The notes below the pieces were generated by a model, which saw nothing but the letters and a program-made list of their open reading frames with translations, was not told where the DNA came from and made no database searches. From contig NZ_CP048405.1 of the NCBI RefSeq assembly GCF_014084125.1, positions 6,634,001 to 6,698,000 of the forward strand: a stretch of DNA of 64,000 nt, written 5' to 3'. Source of the stretch: Streptacidiphilus sp. PB12-B1b. Its GTDB lineage: Bacteria; Actinomycetota; Actinomycetes; Streptomycetales; Streptomycetaceae. Shown here in pieces: positions 13,365-24,552 of this stretch (position 1 is the stretch's first letter; every line of letters begins with the position of its first letter). A program made the translations under genes and the position numbers.

Positions 13365-14870
13365 TTGAGCAACGACATACCTGTCGAAGGCCGGACGTCC
13401 GGCCTGCGGGCCAATGCCCTCGGCGGCTTCGACACCGTCGTCATGGCCCTGGCGGGCAGCGCCCCCGCATACTCACTGGCCTCCACCACCGCCGTCCTGG
13501 TCGGCGCCGCCGGACTGGTCAGCCCCGCCGCCCTGCTGTGGTGCGCGATCCCCATGCTCGGCATCGCCTGGGCCTTCAACTACCTGGGCCGCCTGGACGT
13601 CAACGCCGGCGCCAGCTACTCCTGGGTCGGCCGGGCGCTGCACCCCTCACTGGGCTTCCTGGCCGGCTGGTCCCTGGTGGTCTCCGCGACCATCTTCATG
13701 GTGGCCGGCTCGCTGCCCGCCGGGCAGTACACCCTCTCGCTGTTCAACAGCGGCTGGGCCGACAACACCTGGGCCTCGATCGGCGTCGGCGCCGTCGCCT
13801 TCCTGATCATGGCGCTGCTGGTGCTGATCGGCATCCGGATCACCACCCACGCCCAGTGGATCATGACCGGGGTCGAGGTCGTCATCCTGGTGGTCTTCGG
13901 CATCGGCGCGCTGATCCACGGCGGCAGCGCGGCGGTCTTCTCCTGGTCCTGGCTGTGGGGCTTCGGCCACTTCGGCGGCGTCAGCGGCTTCGCCACCGCC
14001 GCGCTGGTCGCCGCCTTCTACTTCTGGGGCTGGGACGTCACCGCCAACCTCAGCGAGGAGACCAGCAACAGCAAGCGCAACTCCGGCCTCGGCGGCCTGG
14101 TCGGCGTCATCGGCGTCTTCGCGCTGTTCGAGATCGTCACCATCGCGGTGAACCTGATCATCAGCCAGAAGGACATCGCCGACCCCAACTCCGCGCCGCT
14201 GCTGACCACCCTGGGCAACACCGTGTGGCCGGGCGCGGGCGGCAAGATCATGGTGCTCGCGGTGGTGCTCTCCACCATCGCCACCCTGGAGACCACGCTG
14301 ATCCAGGTCTCCCGCTCGCTGTTCGCCATGGGCCGCGACCGGACCATCCCGGCCATCTTCGGCAAGTCCCACTCCCGTTGGCAGACCCCGTGGTTCGCCA
14401 TCGCCGTGGTCGTGGCGGTCTCCCTGGTCCTCTTCGTCACCTCGCAGAAGCTGGGCTCGGTCGGCAACATCATGACCGACGCGATCGACGCCATCGGCCT
14501 GCAGATCGCGGTCTACTACGCGCTGGCCGGCATCGCCGTCGTGGTCGCCTACCGCAAGCTGGTGCTCAAGTCCTTCTCCAACGCGATCTTCGTCGGGCTG
14601 TGGCCGCTGGCCGGCGCCGTCTTCATGGCCTTCCTGTTCGTCGAGAACTGCATGTCCCTGGACGCCACCACCATCGCCATCGGCCTGGGCGCGCTCGCGC
14701 TGGGCCTGATCCCGATGGCCTGGTACTGGGCCAGCGGCAGCGAGTACTACCGCACCGGGACCGTCCGGCTGGACGCGACCTCGTCCGACGAGGTGGACGC
14801 CCTCTACGGCGAGAGCACCCTGGCCACCGCCTCCACAGGTCCGGCCGATACCCTCGCAACGGATATCTGA
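13365..14870 (+). CDS. APC-family amino-acid permease
   Basis: A 501-residue integral membrane protein of the amino acid-polyamine-organocation superfamily. The N-terminus has the typical substrate-binding region GFDTVVMALAGSAPAYSLAS in helix 1. About twelve hydrophobic helices follow, with the loop NLSEETSNSKRN in the middle and RSLFAMGRDRTIPAIFGK, the conserved cytoplasmic stretch, in the second half. It probably imports an amino acid or amine by proton symport; the substrate is not evident. The TTG start at 13365 is supported by GGAGAGG 8 nt upstream. The C-terminal 35 residues are hydrophilic and cytoplasmic. A stem-loop lies 22 bp after the stop. Confidence 0.88.
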   Translation: MSNDIPVEGRTSGLRANALGGFDTVVMALAGSAPAYSLASTTAVLVGAAGLVSPAALLWCAIPMLGIAWAFNYLGRLDVNAGASYSWVGRALHPSLGFLAGWSLVVSATIFMVAGSLPAGQYTLSLFNSGWADNTWASIGVGAVAFLIMALLVLIGIRITTHAQWIMTGVEVVILVVFGIGALIHGGSAAVFSWSWLWGFGHFGGVSGFATAALVAAFYFWGWDVTANLSEETSNSKRNSGLGGLVGVIGVFALFEIVTIAVNLIISQKDIADPNSAPLLTTLGNTVWPGAGGKIMVLAVVLSTIATLETTLIQVSRSLFAMGRDRTIPAIFGKSHSRWQTPWFAIAVVVAVSLVLFVTSQKLGSVGNIMTDAIDAIGLQIAVYYALAGIAVVVAYRKLVLKSFSNAIFVGLWPLAGAVFMAFLFVENCMSLDATTIAIGLGALALGLIPMAWYWASGSEYYRTGTVRLDATSSDEVDALYGESTLATASTGPADTLATDI

Positions 14871-14891
14871 CTGATCGACAACTCCCTTGCC

Positions 14892-14933
14892 GCGGATGCC
14901 GGTCGGTTCCTCGTGAACCGGTCCGGCATCCGC
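14892..14933 (+). terminator. stem-loop after the permease gene
   Basis: Arms GCGGATGCCGG and CCGGCATCCGC (11 bp) continue, after a small bulge, into CGGTTC/GAACCG around the loop CTCGT. There is no T-run, as is usual for actinobacterial terminators. It lies just after the permease stop. Confidence 0.65.
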
Positions 14934-14964
14934 CCGTTCCGTTCACCGCAGGGATGAACAGCCG

Positions 14965-14988
14965 GTGGGCGTCCGCGCGGACGCCCAC
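14965..14988. repeat. perfect 24-bp palindrome
   Basis: GTGGGCGTCCGC followed directly by GCGGACGCCCAC, a perfect inverted repeat without spacer. It lies between the permease stem-loop and the next gene (ATG 15033). With no loop it suits a protein-binding dyad better than an RNA hairpin, although a second terminator is possible. Confidence 0.5.
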
Positions 14989-15032
14989 CACTCCGCCGAC
15001 TCTCCCGCCCCAGACCGAGAGTGGTCACCCTC

Positions 15033-16007
15033 ATGGCCAGAGCACGACGACGCGTCACCGCCCCACGGTTCGACCCCACCTTCGGCGACCACGCCCTCGC
15101 CACCGCCCGGCAGGACCTCGTCGTGGGTCGCTGGCAGGGCGCCCGCGACCTGCTCCGCGACACCGGCCGGGACTGGGACCGGCGCACCCACCGGATGCGC
15201 CTGCTCGCCGACACCGCCGCCGGGATCCGCACCGTGGAGACCTGGCAGGCCGCCGACCCCGGCAACCCGGACGCCCTGGTCCTGCGCGCCGAGACCGAGG
15301 TCATGCGGATCTTCGCCGCCGTCAGCGAGCAGACCCGGACCAACGGCGCCCCGCCCGCCCCCTCCCAGGACGCCGTCGACCGGACGCACCTGGACCGGGC
15401 CGCCCGGATCTGCCTGCAGGCCGCCGAGAAGCACCCCGCCGACCCGGTGCCCTGGGTGTCGCTGATGACCCTGGCCCGGCTCTACGGCCACGGGCACCCG
15501 CACGTCTGGCACTGGTGGCGCGAGCTCCAGGCCCGCGACGCCTACAGCCGCGAGGGCCACCACCAGGTGCTGCGCCACCTCTCCGCGCGCTGGCACGGCT
15601 CGCACGGCGAGATGTACAACTTCGCCCGCGACAGCGCCGCCTTCGCCCCGGTCGGCTCGCCGCTGGCCGCGCTCACCCAGACCGCCCGGTCCGAGCACTA
15701 CCGGCACCGGGTCACCGTCGAGGGCCCCACCGCCGTCGGCCTGACCTACCACTGGACGCACGAGGTCGCCGTCCAGGCGCTGCACTCCACCATGCGCGAC
15801 TGGATAGCCCACCGCAACGGCATGGAGTACGCCCAGGACGTCGCCGACCTCAACACGGTGCTGCACGCCCTGATCTTCGCGGGCATGCGGGACGAAGCCC
15901 GCGAGGTCAACCGCCAACTGGGCGACCGGCCCACCCGGGTGCCCTGGTCCTACTCGGGCGATCCGGAGGGCCTCTTCGACCACTGGCGGTCGCAGCTCAG
16001 CGGCTGA
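15033..16007 (+). CDS. conserved hypothetical protein, probably helical-repeat
   Basis: I do not recognise a defined family. The 324-residue product is soluble, with no signal peptide or membrane segment. It is rich in Arg, Trp and His and mainly helical. Stretches such as ARQDLVVGRWQGARDLL, DPGNPDALVLRAETEVMRIF and HPADPVPWVSLMTLARL read like degenerate tetratricopeptide helices, suggesting a scaffold or binding role rather than a catalytic one; this is inference. ATG 15033 is taken as the start; a GTG at 15021 is four codons upstream, and neither has a good ribosome site. Codon use is typical of the genome. It ends 80 bp before pta, whose -10-like TAGGCT (16015-16020) suggests independent transcription of that gene. 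Confidence 0.7.
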   Translation: MARARRRVTAPRFDPTFGDHALATARQDLVVGRWQGARDLLRDTGRDWDRRTHRMRLLADTAAGIRTVETWQAADPGNPDALVLRAETEVMRIFAAVSEQTRTNGAPPAPSQDAVDRTHLDRAARICLQAAEKHPADPVPWVSLMTLARLYGHGHPHVWHWWRELQARDAYSREGHHQVLRHLSARWHGSHGEMYNFARDSAAFAPVGSPLAALTQTARSEHYRHRVTVEGPTAVGLTYHWTHEVAVQALHSTMRDWIAHRNGMEYAQDVADLNTVLHALIFAGMRDEAREVNRQLGDRPTRVPWSYSGDPEGLFDHWRSQLSG

Positions 16008-16087
16008 GCGCGGGTAGGCTCGTGGAGCGGGACCGTCTCCGCGCCGGTCCGCCCCACCACTGGCCTGGCAAGGAACGGAGTGCCCCC

Positions 16088-18214
16088 GTGGCGCGCAGCG
16101 TGTACGTGACCGGGATAGGCCGGGGGGACGGCCGGCAGGCCGTCGAACTCGGCGTCATGGAGTTGCTGACCCGGCAGGTCGACCGGGTGGGGGTGTTCCG
16201 CCCGCTGACGCACCACCGCACCGACCACGTGGTGGAGCTGCTGCGCGGCCGCTACCGCCTGGAGCTGCCCGCCGAGGAGCTGTACGGGCTGGACTACGAG
16301 GAGGCCGCCGCCCTGCAGGCGGAGCGCGGCCCGGACGAGCTGATCGGCCTGCTGGTGGACCGCTTCCGGCAGCTGGAGCAGCAGTGCCAGGCGGTCCTGG
16401 TGCTCGGCACCGACTTCGCCGGCACCAACATCCCGGACGAGCTGGCGGTCAACGCCCGGCTGGCCAACGAGTTCGGCGCCTGGGTGCTGCCGGTCGTCGG
16501 CGGCCACCGGGAGGGCGCCGACACCGTCGTCGCCGAGGTCCGCAACGCCCACCGCGCCTACAGCGACCTGGGCTGCAACATCCTGGCCATGATCGCCAAC
16601 CGGGTTCCGGGCCGGGACAAGCAGGAGGTCCAGCGGCGACTGGCCACCCGTCCGGACGTACCCGTGTACGTGATCCCGGACGAGCCCGCGCTGTCCGCGC
16701 CCACCGTCACCCAGGTGGTCGAGACGACCGGCGCCGAGGTGCTGCTCGGCGACGCCGCCGGGCTGGCCCGGGACGTGCGCCAGTTCATCTTCGGCGGGGC
16801 CATGCTGCCCAACTTCCTCGGCGCGATCGAGGAGGGCGCCCTGGTGATCACCCCCGGCGACCGGGCCGACCTGCTGATCGGCTCGCTGGCGGCGCACGCG
16901 GCCGGCTCGCCGCCGATCGCCGGCGTGCTGCTGACCATGGGCGAGACCCCCGGCCCGGACGTGATGCGGCTGGCCTCCCGGCTCGCCCCGGGGACGCCGG
17001 TGGCCGTCGTCCCGGCGGGCAGCTTCCCCACCGCCACCGCGCTGTCCACCCTGGAGGGCCGGCTCACCGCCGCCGGGCCGCGCAAGGCCGAGACCGCGCT
17101 CGGCCTGTTCGAGCTGCACGTCGACACCGCCGAGCTGACCAGCCGGATCGAGCTCAGCCGCTCGGAGCGGGTGACCCCGATGATGTTCGAGCACGAGCTG
17201 CTGGAACGCGCCCGGGGCTCGGCGCTGCGGGAGGTGGTGCTGCCGGAGGGCACCGAGGAGCGGGTGCTGCGGGCGGCGGAGGTGCTGCTGCGCCGCAACG
17301 TCTGCCACCTCACCCTGCTCGGCGACGAGGCCGCGGTGCGGCGGCGGGTCGCCGAGCTGGGCCTGGACCTCGGCCTGGACGCCCCGGAGACCGGCCGGGC
17401 CCGCGCCCGGGTGGTGGACCCGGCCGCCTCCCCGCTGCGGGACCGCTTCGCCGAGCTGTACGCGGAGATCCGCAGGCACAAGGGCATGACCCTGGAGGCC
17501 GCGCACGACGTGGTCGCGGACGCCAGCTACTTCGGCACCATGATGGTGCAGGAGGGCATCGCCGACGGCATGGTCAGCGGGGCGGTGCACTCCACCGCCG
17601 CGACCATCCGCCCGGCCTTCGAGATCATTCGGACCTCGCCCGGCGCGGCCGTGGTCTCCTCGGTCTTCTTCATGTGCCTGGCCGACCAGGTGCTGGTCTA
17701 CGGCGACTGCGCGGTCAACCGCGATCCGGACGCCGAGCAGCTGGCCGACATCGCCGTGCAGTCCGCCGACACCGCCGCCCGCTTCGGGGTGGAGCCCCGG
17801 GTGGCCATGCTGTCGTACTCGACCGGGGACTCCGGCAGCGGCGCCGACGTGGACAAGGTCCGCAAGGCCACCGAGCTGGTCCGCGCCATGCGGCCGGAGC
17901 TGCTGGTCGAGGGCCCGATCCAGTACGACGCGGCGGTGGAGCCCGCGGTGGCCGCCACCAAGCTGCCGGGCTCGCCGGTGGCCGGGCGGGCCACCGTGCT
18001 GATCTTCCCGGACCTGAACACCGGCAACAACACCTACAAGGCCGTGCAGCGTTCGGCCGGGGCGGTAGCCGTCGGCCCGGTCCTCCAGGGCCTGCGCAAA
18101 CCGGTGAACGACCTGTCCCGGGGCGCCCTGGTCCAGGACATCGTCAACACCGTGGCCATCACCGCCGTCCAGGCGCAGCAGGCCGCCGAGGACGCGGAAG
18201 GGGACCGGTCGTGA
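16088..18214 (+). CDS. pta: phosphate acetyltransferase
   Basis: Pta converts acetyl-CoA and phosphate to acetyl-phosphate and CoA. At 708 residues it is the long form. The N-terminal half is a P-loop-like BioD/DRTGG region (YVTGIGRGDGRQAVELG, VLGTDFAGTNIPDE, LIGSLAAHAAGSPPIAGVLL). The catalytic PTA domain starts near residue 360 (MMFEHELLERARGSALREVVLPEG) and carries VSGAVHSTAATIRPAFEIIR, MLSYSTGDSGSG and FPDLNTGNNTYKAVQRSA. GTG 16088 has AGGAACGGAG ending 7 nt upstream. Its last four bases (GTGA) overlap the ackA start, so the two acetate-overflow enzymes are translationally coupled. Confidence 0.96.
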   Translation: MARSVYVTGIGRGDGRQAVELGVMELLTRQVDRVGVFRPLTHHRTDHVVELLRGRYRLELPAEELYGLDYEEAAALQAERGPDELIGLLVDRFRQLEQQCQAVLVLGTDFAGTNIPDELAVNARLANEFGAWVLPVVGGHREGADTVVAEVRNAHRAYSDLGCNILAMIANRVPGRDKQEVQRRLATRPDVPVYVIPDEPALSAPTVTQVVETTGAEVLLGDAAGLARDVRQFIFGGAMLPNFLGAIEEGALVITPGDRADLLIGSLAAHAAGSPPIAGVLLTMGETPGPDVMRLASRLAPGTPVAVVPAGSFPTATALSTLEGRLTAAGPRKAETALGLFELHVDTAELTSRIELSRSERVTPMMFEHELLERARGSALREVVLPEGTEERVLRAAEVLLRRNVCHLTLLGDEAAVRRRVAELGLDLGLDAPETGRARARVVDPAASPLRDRFAELYAEIRRHKGMTLEAAHDVVADASYFGTMMVQEGIADGMVSGAVHSTAATIRPAFEIIRTSPGAAVVSSVFFMCLADQVLVYGDCAVNRDPDAEQLADIAVQSADTAARFGVEPRVAMLSYSTGDSGSGADVDKVRKATELVRAMRPELLVEGPIQYDAAVEPAVAATKLPGSPVAGRATVLIFPDLNTGNNTYKAVQRSAGAVAVGPVLQGLRKPVNDLSRGALVQDIVNTVAITAVQAQQAAEDAEGDRS

Positions 18215-20977: not shown

Positions 20978-22543
20978 TCAGCTCAGCGGCGTGTAGTACA
21001 GGTGCATCCCCGGGATCGTCAGATTGCCGCCGAACTGGCCGGTCTGGACCGCGACCGCGTTGGTCAGATCGAGCGTCAGCGGGATCGGGACGTCGCCGAT
21101 GAGGTCGTACAGCCATTGCGGCAGGGTGTCCGGCGTCAGCGTGAGATTGATGCCCAGCCAGGACAGCGGGATGCCCTCGGCCGAGGCCAGCGTGCCGGAG
21201 AGGCTGGTGACGTACATGGTCACCGTCCCGCCGGTCATGGTGGAGGTGGTGCCGGACCCGCCCTGGACGTGCAGCTGTTGGCCGATCTGCTGGGTCGACA
21301 TGTCGAGATTGCCGATGTTGACCGCCTGCGCGGTGAACTTCAGCGCCCGGACGTCCCCGGCGGCCGTGGGCACGGTCACCACGCCGAAGAACTGGGTGTT
21401 GATCAGCTCCAGGTTGTTGCTCTTGAGCGTCCACGGCACGGCCGGCATCTCGGTGATGCCGCTGTCGGCCATGCTGGTGTCCAGCGGCGCGGCCAGGTGG
21501 CTGATGTCGCAGAGCTTGTTCGCCTCGGCGGCGGAGCCGGGCGCGGCCGACGGCGCGGTGGTCGGCGCGGTGGTCGGCGCGGTGGTGGGCGCGCCGGTGG
21601 CCTTGGCCGGGGCGGAGCCGGTGGGCGCCGTCGTCCCGGAGCCGGTGCCCGTCGCGGTGGCGGCGGGGGTGGCACCGGCGGAGGCGGTCGCGGCCGCGGT
21701 CGGCGTGGACGGGGTGGCGGCGGAGGGGGTGGTGCCGGGCACCGGGGTGGTCGCGGCGGCGGCAGCGGCGGCGACGCGCGCGGCCGGGGCGGAGGCCGAC
21801 GGCGCGGGCGTCGAGGCGGCAACCGTGGAGGCGGCGACCGTGGAGGCGGAGGCCGTCGGGGCAGAGCCCGTCGGGGTGGCGGTGGACGACGCGTCCAGGC
21901 CGAGCAGGCCGCCGAGGCCGCTGAGGATCCCGCCGAGCGGATCGCCCGGCTGGTTGTGGTGGGCGGGCTTGGAGGGGCTGGCCGTGGGCTCGCCGGACGG
22001 CCGCGAGGACGGCTGCGGCGCGCTCGGCGCGGTGCTCGCCGAGGCGGTGGGCGCGGGCGCGTGGGTGGCCGGAGCGCCCTGCCCGGCGGAGCCGCCGGAG
22101 GCACCGGTACCGGTGGAGGCCGCAGTGGACGAGCCGCCCGTCGGCGTGGCCGCGCGGCCGGACTCCTTGGCCGACTTGGACGTCTTGGCCGCCGAGGGGG
22201 CGCCGGTGGACGCCGCGGAGGGGCTGGCGGTCGCGGTCGCCGCCTTGCCCGTCTCCAGCGCCTTCAGCGTGGTCTTGGTGCAGGTGTCGCCCTCGGGGGT
22301 GGACGCCGCCGCGCCGGTGGAGGCCGTGGCGGAAGCCGAACGGGCGTCGGCGGCGAGGGCGAACTTCGGCGCGATGGTGCCCATCAGCAGCGCCGTGGGC
22401 ACGGCCGTCAGCGCCAGGGCGCGGCCGACCGGCAGCTGCAGCCGACCGCGGACGGTGCGCCGGGGCGCGGCATGCCGCCCCGAGACCCGCGGCCCGGGGG
22501 CCTGCGGACCGGCGGCGCGGGCCGGGTCGGAGTCACTCGCCAT
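20978..22543 (-). CDS. exported Pro/Ala/Thr/Ser-rich protein with DUF6230-like C-terminal domain
   Basis: The function is unknown. The 521-residue product has an Arg-rich cytosolic N-terminus (1-40), a hydrophobic export segment (about 41-65: LALTAVPTALLMGTIAP, then FALAADA) and a very long low-complexity linker of Ala, Thr, Ser and Pro (about 66-340), as in wall-spanning or glycosylated linkers. A C-terminal folded region of about 180 residues ends in GMHLYYTPLS. That region shares landmarks (NKLC near its start, GMHL near its end) with the DUF6230 protein encoded at 23291-23923, so the two are probably paralogs. It overlaps the DUF6114 gene by 11 bp, pointing to one operon. The first cysteine of the mature part is far from the export segment, so it is not a lipoprotein. 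Confidence 0.78.
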   Translation of the reverse strand: MASDSDPARAAGPQAPGPRVSGRHAAPRRTVRGRLQLPVGRALALTAVPTALLMGTIAPKFALAADARSASATASTGAAASTPEGDTCTKTTLKALETGKAATATASPSAASTGAPSAAKTSKSAKESGRAATPTGGSSTAASTGTGASGGSAGQGAPATHAPAPTASASTAPSAPQPSSRPSGEPTASPSKPAHHNQPGDPLGGILSGLGGLLGLDASSTATPTGSAPTASASTVAASTVAASTPAPSASAPAARVAAAAAAATTPVPGTTPSAATPSTPTAAATASAGATPAATATGTGSGTTAPTGSAPAKATGAPTTAPTTAPTTAPSAAPGSAAEANKLCDISHLAAPLDTSMADSGITEMPAVPWTLKSNNLELINTQFFGVVTVPTAAGDVRALKFTAQAVNIGNLDMSTQQIGQQLHVQGGSGTTSTMTGGTVTMYVTSLSGTLASAEGIPLSWLGINLTLTPDTLPQWLYDLIGDVPIPLTLDLTNAVAVQTGQFGGNLTIPGMHLYYTPLS

Positions 22544-23156
22544 GGCGGTACTCCCCCTCGTGCACGCCCTCCGCCGACTGCGGCTCGGGCAGGTACGCCT
22601 GCGCGGCGGTGGGGGCCTCCCCGGCCGGCCCGGTCTGCTGCGGGAGTTCGGGGAACCGGGGGGCGGCGGTCAGCTCGCCGGTCCCGGCGTACTCCGCCTC
22701 GGCCGCCTCGGCGTCCTGCGGGTCGCTGACCGGCTCGGCCGCCTTCGGCTGCTTGAGCGGGGCCCAGGAGCAGACCATGACGCCGCCGAGCAGGCCCGGC
22801 AGCAGGCCCAGGCCGAAGCCGCCCAGGTTCGACATCGGGATGGACACCAGGACCAGCACCAGTGCGGCGATGCCCGCGAAGATGCGGATGAGCGGCTGGA
22901 ACCAGACGGAGACGCCGAGCGCGATCAGCAGCAGGCCGATCAGCAGCGAGGCGGCTCCGGCCGAGGTGGCGAGGTGGATGCTCAGGGTGCCGATGCTGAG
23001 GTTGGCGTACGGGAAGTAGAGGATCGGCAGTCCGGCCAGGAGAACCAGCAGTCCCCCCCAGAACGGGCGGGTGCGGCGCCAGTTTCGGAACGCTCGGCGG
23101 GCCTTGCTGAAGCCGGTCTCGGGCTCGGGCCGCGCCTGCGCGGTCGCGCTCGTCAC
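22533..23156 (-). CDS. DUF6114 integral membrane protein
   Basis: A 207-residue membrane protein of unknown function matching the actinobacterial DUF6114 family. After about 30 hydrophilic residues (RRAFRNWRRTRPFW) there are four hydrophobic segments: GGLLVLLAGLPILYFPY, ATSAGAASLLIGLLLIALGVSVW, IFAGIAALVLVLVSIPM and GLLPGLLGGVMVC. An acidic Glu/Pro-rich tail of about 60 residues follows. The start is GTG 23156, with GGGAG upstream. The middle position between two exported proteins and the overlap with the downstream gene suggest a membrane partner for them; that is inference from gene order. Confidence 0.82.
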   Translation of the reverse strand: MTSATAQARPEPETGFSKARRAFRNWRRTRPFWGGLLVLLAGLPILYFPYANLSIGTLSIHLATSAGAASLLIGLLLIALGVSVWFQPLIRIFAGIAALVLVLVSIPMSNLGGFGLGLLPGLLGGVMVCSWAPLKQPKAAEPVSDPQDAEAAEAEYAGTGELTAAPRFPELPQQTGPAGEAPTAAQAYLPEPQSAEGVHEGEYRHGE

Positions 23157-23290
23157 GTGGCAACTCCCAGATGGTGATCAGTGGTGGAACACGGTGGGGA
23201 GGGACCGGGGCCCCTCCCCACCACGCGTGATGGATCAGTACGTCGTCCATCGGCAGGTCGGCTGTCGGGCCGACTGGAGGCGCTTGCGCG

Positions 23291-23923
23291 TCAGAAGCAC
23301 TCAGCGTTGCTGTTGTTGACGCTGAGGTGCATCCCGTTCAGCGAGAAGGTGCCGGCCGAGGTGGCCCACGCCGTCTGCTGCACGCCGGTCAGGTTGGCCG
23401 AGTCGGCCTCCTGGGCGAACCCGGCGGGGTTGTAGAACTGCGGGTTGCTGGAGTCGCCCGCGCTGACGCTGCCCTTGCTGACAGCACCCTCGGCAACACC
23501 GATGTTGATGTTGTTGAAGGTCGCCGTCGTGGCCTGCAGATCGGTCATGTCGATGTACAGGTTGCTGGCGGTCACCGGGTGCTTGGCGTCGTCGCCTGCG
23601 GTGATCTTCAGCACGTAGGTGCCGAGCGGGCCCAGCGGCAGCTGCACGGACTGGCAGAGCTTGTTGATGGTGGCCGTCTTGAAGCCGGAGACGGCAACGG
23701 GGACGTACTTGTTGCCTTCCTGCGTGTCGACCGTGCCGTACTGCACGAAGCCCTGGCCGCTGAGCGAGTCTGCGGACACCTTGAAGTCGGTGCCGGAGAC
23801 ACTGAACGACGCGGCGAGGGCGCCCTGCGCGACGCTGACACCGACTGCCGCCGTGACGGCGAGGGTCGGGACCATGACGACTGCGAAGCGCTTCCAGCGG
23901 GTCTTGCCATAAGTCTGGGACAT
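23291..23923 (-). CDS. DUF6230 secreted protein
   Basis: The function is unknown; homologs are sometimes labelled cholesterol esterase without visible support. The 210-residue product has a Sec signal peptide: TRWKRFAVVMVP, a hydrophobic core, and likely cleavage after GALA near residue 38. The mature part is Thr/Asn/Ser-rich and beta-type, with landmarks INKLCQS, LYIDMTDLQATTATF and LNGMHLSV, and two cysteines that could form a disulfide. I see no catalytic triad. ATG 23923 has an excellent Shine-Dalgarno (GGAGG), implying strong translation. It is the first gene of the three-gene locus and is followed after 134 bp by the DUF6114 gene. Confidence 0.82.
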   Translation of the reverse strand: MSQTYGKTRWKRFAVVMVPTLAVTAAVGVSVAQGALAASFSVSGTDFKVSADSLSGQGFVQYGTVDTQEGNKYVPVAVSGFKTATINKLCQSVQLPLGPLGTYVLKITAGDDAKHPVTASNLYIDMTDLQATTATFNNINIGVAEGAVSKGSVSAGDSSNPQFYNPAGFAQEADSANLTGVQQTAWATSAGTFSLNGMHLSVNNSNAECF

Positions 23924-24552
23924 AACGAGGTCCTCCTTCTCGGACGTGCATCTTCGGCCTGCCCCGCTAGGGCCCCGGCCTGGGATGGGGAGAAGAGCTA
24001 CGTCCTCGGGAAGGGGAGCGCGTCGGCTGTATGCGTTCACACGTACGGACACAGGCGTCCGGACGGCTGATCGGCAGCATCGGCGATCACCCCCGAGCGA
24101 CAACCACCGGTCGAGCTGGGTGCTCGGCCGTGAGAGGACAGGCTCCACGGGGAAGGCGGAGACCCCCCTGTCCTCAAGGCACCGGCCGGGCCGGCACCTG
24201 CCCGGTGGGGATTCGCCGGAGGCAACCGACTGGCTGTCGGCCTACCCCAACGAACCGGGCGTGCCTGATCGTCGTCCAATACAGGCCGCTGCACAAGTGG
24301 TTCGTTACTGATGAGTAAGGAACAAGTGAACCCTTGCGGGCGGCCGGACGCAGGGCATATCACCGCCAGTGACCGCCGTCCGGACCGCCGCGCGGGCAAA
24401 GCCCAGGAAACACGCCGTTAACAGTCGATGACGGCCACCGAGGGTGACCGTCATCACAAAATATCAAGTTTTGGTAAACCTCAGGAACACCAGCGGCTTT
24501 GTCGGCAAATCGCCGATGCCGCTGCGTGCCGTCCGGTCACCCGGTGCCGTGC
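23924..24552. other. 629-bp region upstream of the DUF6230 gene
   Basis: No convincing gene is present. The right end holds a stem-loop (24427-24455) that would follow the thioredoxin-fold gene, then an A/T-rich stretch (24456-24480). The left part presumably carries the promoter of the DUF6230 locus. I could not identify -35/-10 elements. Confidence 0.4.
24427..24455 (-). terminator. stem-loop after the thioredoxin-fold gene
   Basis: GATGACGGCCACC pairs with GGTGACCGTCATC (12 of 13) around a 3-nt loop. It lies about 100 bp past the stop at 24553 on the minus strand. There is no U-run. Confidence 0.5.

Follow-up and report, generated by a model that had tools for sequence, protein, structure and literature searches.

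The described gene that corresponds, by gene order, to the first gene of the locus considered here is SCO5420 of Streptomyces coelicolor, called a cholesterol esterase in a report in which it rose almost 37-fold on Tween and which gives pyk2 as SCO5423 (PMC7494193). Streptomyces "cholesterol esterases" are also listed in PMC4098958, PMC12772271 and PMC3087709. In the literature searched the locus is almost unstudied: the Pfam family DUF6230 occurs in a promoter list, "DUF6114" was not found, and SCO5420 to SCO5422 are scarcely named. The locus lies in a 64,000-nucleotide (nt) stretch of Streptacidiphilus sp. PB12-B1b (NZ_CP048405.1, positions 6,634,001 to 6,698,000), hereafter the window, and consists of genes for a DUF6230 protein (A), a DUF6114 protein (B) and a linker protein with a C-terminal domain (C).

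The A-B-C architecture is well supported, and the new feature is that the operon begins with a che1 RNA and two near-invariant blocks able to pair over the ribosome site of A. We propose that the three proteins would form one exported module. The sequences support a secreted beta domain of the DUF6230 family for A, a distant homologue of that domain held on a long flexible arm for C, and a membrane protein of four helices for B, which in other actinobacteria is fused to C by way of a further helix. The reading of A, B and C as a leader-controlled surface module whose molecular function may be the handling of hydrophobic or ester ligands is put forward tentatively, as plausible rather than probable.

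Gene Layout and Co-conservation

The genes of the module are as follows.

23291-23923, minus strand: A, DUF6230 protein of 210 amino acids (PF19741, E 5.7e-55)
22533-23156, minus strand: B, DUF6114 protein of 207 amino acids with four predicted membrane helices (PF19609, E 2.6e-33; hydropathy)
20978-22543, minus strand: C, 521 amino acids, with an export segment at residues 42-58, a linker at 68-337 and a C-terminal domain at about 367-513 (open reading frame, hydropathy)
21005-21445, minus strand: C-terminal domain of C, predicted distant DUF6230 homologue (profile comparison, strand agreement, model)

All three open reading frames are present on the minus strand where a first-pass annotation of this DNA had placed them, and the 11-bp overlap it gave for the last two genes is found at 22533-22543. 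A start codon creating exactly this overlap is available in 70/77 loci, a count biased toward 11 by a script that picked the start nearest to 11 bp. The A frame lies inside a longer one that has a start codon further upstream; the excellent ribosome site credited to A is AAGGAGG, 8 nt ahead of its ATG. A scores 186 bits against DUF6230 (cut-off 27.5 bits) and B 115.3 bits against DUF6114 (cut-off 27.9 bits), so that both are members, and the four hydrophobic segments of B agree with its earlier description as a four-helix membrane protein. Hydropathy gives a single hydrophobic segment in A (residues 13-29), with a likely predicted signal cleavage before residue 38, and a single one in C (residues 42-58). 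DUF6230, DUF6114 and the C domain each occur once in the genome.

Among Streptomycetaceae more than 80 loci matched; we considered the 80 best, plus the window. A, B and C were seen in 77/81 of these, so the arrangement is not due to chance; in two of the remaining four only A is seen and in the other two A and B, the contigs of all four ending soon after. The proteins closest to A among the best 80 loci are from Streptacidiphilus (70, 69, and 61% identity).

A wider survey used 246 genomes drawn from the class of the window. DUF6230 was found in 50/246 and DUF6114 above its cut-off in 49/246; both occur together in 49 genomes and DUF6230 alone in one, G085 (lists compared by eye), and three genomes have weak DUF6114 matches without DUF6230. 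All 22 genomes listed from the family of the window contain DUF6230. Genomes without a match were only partly listed, and since the match lists are apparently sorted by kinship, no genome of this family seems to lack the A-B pair. According to the locus tables, full A and B adjoin in 73/75 loci fetched from the class genomes, the exceptions being L078, with fragments of A and B, and L087, without B. Another class yielded five more DUF6230 matches, with A adjoining B in 4/4 loci fetched. Co-conservation, which the first-pass annotation had named as a check on its proposal, is therefore well supported for A and B, with 49 genomes holding both against one with A alone. One locus of the other class also has, near A-B, an 844-amino-acid opposite-strand frame (L203:1509-4040) with a weak match to the A profile (E 2e-4 to 6e-4).

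Kinship of A and the C-terminal Domain of C

C matched no Pfam family at E≤1 and fell short of the DUF6230 cut-off. Profiles of 159 A and 118 C sequences, compared with hhalign, nonetheless aligned over nearly the whole C domain with P 1.3e-4, against a best P of 0.014 among 20 column-shuffled controls and 0.36 for a reversed profile; smaller alignments had earlier given only a weak result (P 0.023). Strand assignments agree on this alignment (kappa 0.51; 0/115 shifts as high), and the main strands follow the same order in the two predicted models. The A model (predicted local distance difference test [pLDDT] 83.9, predicted template modelling score [pTM] 0.80) is nearly all beta, with helices of only 3 residues, and the C domain model has pLDDT 88.9 and pTM 0.83. 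The fused C domain of L079 provides an intermediate, being the only C protein matched by the A profile (E 1.4e-4). Proline is found in the hydrophobic core of the export segment in 146/157 A, 93/97 split C, and 17/20 fused C proteins, versus 23/297 B helices. The C-terminal domain of C is thus predicted, with good support from profiles and models, to be a distant DUF6230 homologue, in keeping with the earlier remark that this domain looks homologous to A.

With Foldseek neither domain clearly matched a PDB structure (best E 0.051 for A and 0.088 for C). The best VIA-align scores against the PDB were Z 2.9 for A (99 residues, root-mean-square deviation [rmsd] 5.1) and Z 2.5 for C (72 residues, rmsd 4.2); a missing PDB match does not show a new fold.

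Probable Union of B and C

C was recognised in 45/75 class loci, 25 with a frame of its own and 20 in which it is fused to B, and 28/75 loci have A and B without a detected C. Three of the latter are A-B-A-B-A arrays; these seemed at one stage to end in linker proteins, an idea dropped on finding that the extra N-terminal sequence looks like a spurious frame on plain A-type proteins. A hydrophobic segment matching the export segment of separate C proteins lies between the B helices and the C domain in 20/20 fused proteins, in several of which one or two B helices fall below the hydropathy threshold. On a tree of B the fused label needs several changes, four of them forced by well-supported branches, so fusion or fission happened more than once, which favours B and C acting together. 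The tree sampled roughly one in six of the 80 named loci, with the window entered twice; it labels L064 as lacking C despite a weak C match, and carries warnings of few columns and unsettled bootstraps. As B and C are one polypeptide in 20/45 C-bearing loci, they probably act as one unit at the membrane. A weak NCBIfam match of B to MusI (E 0.0062) was set aside.

Two fused loci deserve separate mention. In L185, from a single Streptomyces genome whose relatives have two genes, B and C share one open frame, and a lost stop or a sequencing error is possible. L079, from another family, keeps a thioredoxin-like gene, has a fused B-C and a mutase-like gene upstream of A, and resembles the window in gene order (partly a reading by eye).

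A che1 RNA and Proposed Leader ahead of A

Four RNA features accompany the genes.

24081-24174, minus strand: che1 RNA (Rfam RF02935), two hairpins and a near-invariant 27-nt tail (cmscan, 80.6 bits)
23989-24014, minus strand: near-invariant leader block, complementary to the Shine-Dalgarno block and the che1 tail (duplex energies, conservation)
23930-23955, minus strand: Shine-Dalgarno block ahead of the A start codon (consensus exact in 71/81 upstream regions)
23193-23222, minus strand: 13-bp hairpin in the gap between A and B (whole gap z -2.38)

The presence of che1 upstream of A is well supported. The match exceeds the gathering score (54.1), spans model positions 1-91 of 91, lies 157 nt from the A start codon, and is the only copy in the genome. 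Across the class survey che1 occurs in 22/246 genomes, the same 22 of the window's family that hold DUF6230, and 22/23 matches adjoin a DUF6230 gene by their coordinates. Each of the 21 matches above the gathering score is just upstream of such a gene; of the two below it, that of G234 is also upstream of a DUF6230 gene and the second match in G182 is elsewhere. A scan of 13 loci returned a che1 match in 7/9 pyk2-type loci and none above the gathering score in L115 and L127, which have diverged leaders, or in L061, L065, L071, and L072. Two-sided changes are seen in 7/7 pairs of the upper stem of the first che1 hairpin (77 sequences). The name che1, we presume, is linked to cholesterol esterase.

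Conservation extends beyond che1 toward A. The leader set leaves out L127, L128, and L145, in which the che1 tail was not found within 4 mismatches, and L115 was left out of the alignment by hand for its clipped 5' end, giving n=77 for structural counts. Among 81 upstream regions the consensus is exact for the che1 tail in 68, the second block in 57, and the Shine-Dalgarno block in 71, the window's Shine-Dalgarno block being a variant. The second block (23989-24014) is the sole match to itself in the genome at ≤3 mismatches. Its duplex with the Shine-Dalgarno block has an energy of -30.4 kcal/mol in the consensus (3/2000 shuffles as low) and -29.3 kcal/mol in the window (2/2000), and that with the che1 tail -31.9 kcal/mol (11/2000). 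The Shine-Dalgarno site is paired with a probability >0.8 in 60/78 leaders versus 15/78 controls. The two leader helices have 97.8 and 99.8% of cells paired and no two-sided changes; because they hardly vary, covariation neither supports nor refutes them.

The conserved extension to the ribosome site suggests that che1 may serve as a cis-acting leader, and the simplest hypothesis is that this leader would have two competing states. In Streptomycetaceae the structured che1 leader would gate synthesis of A, the downstream block pairing over the ribosome site; the che1 tail could pair with that same block, giving a two-state translational switch.

Stems of at least 11 bp, mostly without a T-run, are found in 57/78 A-B gaps (0.8 expected). 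Such a hairpin is a possible 3' stabiliser of the A message or a weak terminator that lessens read-through, and might in either role leave more A than B-C message. A classical terminator was considered and rejected, at least four T residues in the 10 nt after the stem occurring in only 4/78 gaps, and a pattern scan found no terminator-like and no sigma-70-like site.

Proposed Ligand Handling and Rival Explanations

In the window, a pyruvate kinase gene lies downstream of the trio in convergent orientation and a thioredoxin/TPR gene upstream on the same strand. The thioredoxin gene is upstream of A in 79/79 named loci with room for it, and pyk2/pyruvate kinase is convergent in 70/75. Since three genes separate pyruvate kinase from thioredoxin, A should be SCO5420. 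The statement in the first-pass annotation that no function was known for the trio thus needs amending, as the gene-order counterpart of A is called a cholesterol esterase in the S. coelicolor report cited above.

If that name is literal, A would be a genuine esterase, secreted and of a new kind outside the alpha/beta-hydrolases, and B-C a membrane receptor or second copy. This is the main rival explanation, and the almost 37-fold rise of SCO5420 on Tween speaks for it, as does the conservation of Ser43 (95%), Asp125 (93%), and Ser92 (90%) in A, which also conserves Cys90 and Cys209 (alignment columns 98% and 86%). Against these stand the absence of a conserved His in A (best column 38%), a GxSxG motif in only 14/159 A sequences, and the nearly all-beta predicted fold, so that A lacks both the motif and triad and, in the predicted model, the fold of alpha/beta-hydrolase lipases. 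Asp125 is moreover the sole charged A column at ≥85%, drops to 81% among 58 members that do not belong to the pyk2-linked set, and aligns with a non-acidic residue in the C domain (by reading of the profile alignment). We consider a true esterase rather unlikely.

A leader-controlled module for surface handling of hydrophobic or ester ligands is favoured because the lipase hallmarks are wanting in A, SCO5420 rises on Tween, and GMC genes are neighbours in some relatives. A cholesterol-oxidase-like GMC gene is divergent next to A in 10/15 loci of one related family (L082, L086, L093, L096, L100, L102, L106, L109, L112, and L113). A and C may bind Tween-, steryl-, or acyl-ester-like hydrophobic ligands outside the membrane, with A as the soluble and B-C as the membrane-side partner, and the label "cholesterol esterase" would then point to a ligand class rather than to a classical hydrolase mechanism. 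The fuller picture is more doubtful: a two-state che1 switch governing an undescribed module, with two homologous beta domains of unknown fold around B that bind lipids or esters, and with the esterase name of A a misnomer.

Several points weigh against a leader-controlled, ligand-handling module. The ligand class and the surface location are predictions, the identity of A with SCO5420 follows from gene order and not from sequence comparison, and an esterase would explain the Tween induction just as well. The GMC neighbour is limited to one family, five loci of which are without it (one cut by a contig end), and probably reflects one evolutionary event. Four of the GMC proteins score 552-566 bits against the NCBIfam cholesterol oxidase model, whose cut-off is 850, and the best cholesterol-oxidase-like match in the window's genome is >200 kb away. 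As to the kinship of A and C, hhalign itself assigns the profile match a probability of only 54%, and the C profile matched nothing among A proteins at E≤1. For the leader, GC-rich controls also pair the Shine-Dalgarno site (median 0.76 vs 0.83 in leaders), the near-invariant ribosome-site helix has no covariation support, and 8/77 sequences, the window included, break one of its pairs. The conserved blocks could in part be DNA elements.

Several GMC loci also have SDR, AurF-like, and MerR-like genes (single members per group identified by Pfam). A gene group near A, two tested members of which had no Pfam match, is common to 14 A-B loci (L061-L063, L065-L067, L069, L070, L072-L076, and L104), and 8 of these have a second group in common, of which the single member tested is an LPMO_10 protein.

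A structural surface or wall assembly, with C passing through the wall on its linker, A as a free subunit and B as the anchor, we regard as improbable. It draws on the homology of the A and C domains, the fused B-C forms, the presence of DUF6230 in 22/22 listed genomes of the window's family, and the long linkers of Streptomycetaceae (109-308 residues in 75 proteins, median 248). In the window the linker measures 270 residues (Ala 28%, Thr 18%, Ser 15%, Pro 13%, Gly 11%), which bears out the earlier description of C as an export segment plus a long Ala-, Thr-, Ser-, and Pro-rich linker. An A-x-A motif, however, follows the hydrophobic core in 89/90 split C proteins (22 expected from shuffling) and the export segment in 12/20 fused proteins (3.6 expected); the 20 fused proteins of this and the proline count include L185 and leave out L064. 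Given this signal-peptidase-like site, C may be released from the membrane by cleavage, and fused B-C might be processed too. Linkers are also shorter in relatives (83-146 residues in 19 fused proteins, L185 left out), and a natural linker-less variant exists in L071 (6158-6805), where a 215-amino-acid C almost without linker adjoins A and B, with no pyk2 in the stretch fetched. A and B moreover occur without a detected C in the 28/75 loci noted above. Of the surface assembly first suggested for this DNA, with one free and one wall-spanning copy of the domain plus a membrane partner, the membrane partner gains support from the B-C fusions, while the signal-peptidase-like site and variable linker length leave the anchored, wall-spanning copy not established.

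Least likely of all, though no systematic search of the loci for signalling partners was made, is that B serves specifically in the export, folding, or retention of DUF6230 domains and that the module senses or signals rather than handles lipids, for A has its own export segment, even though B adjoins A in 73/75 loci, A-B-A-B-A arrays included, and the pairing recurs in another class.

Other Observations

Viral contigs yielded no relative, and the best match in a viral fold library had E 0.0088 and TM 0.15. Plasmid records gave five protein matches, and the four inspected were without any annotated feature. Elsewhere in the window, at 13538-18214, a 1558-amino-acid open frame with a phosphate-acetyltransferase-like end is followed by an acetate-kinase-like frame (reading by eye of a GC-rich stretch with ambiguous start sites).

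Comparison with Known Systems

If the proposed leader-controlled surface module is correct, the Rfam RNA che1 gains a target and a mechanism that can be tested, a pair of DUF families and one domain unrecognised by Pfam come together in one system, and the enzyme name of A is put in question. Which signal opens the leader becomes a directly testable question.

Each component resembles a described family or gene and departs from it in a particular way. A matches the whole DUF6230 model, which misses the C-terminal domain of C. B likewise matches the whole DUF6114 model and is fused to the linker-domain protein in 20/45 C-bearing loci. The RNA upstream of A is a full-length match to che1, which Rfam types as "Gene; sRNA" with 91 positions, whereas here conservation runs on to the ribosome site. 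Counted from pyk2 as SCO5423, A holds the same place in the gene order as SCO5420; the latter bears the name cholesterol esterase, whereas A, matched to it by order alone, is without the hallmarks of a lipase.

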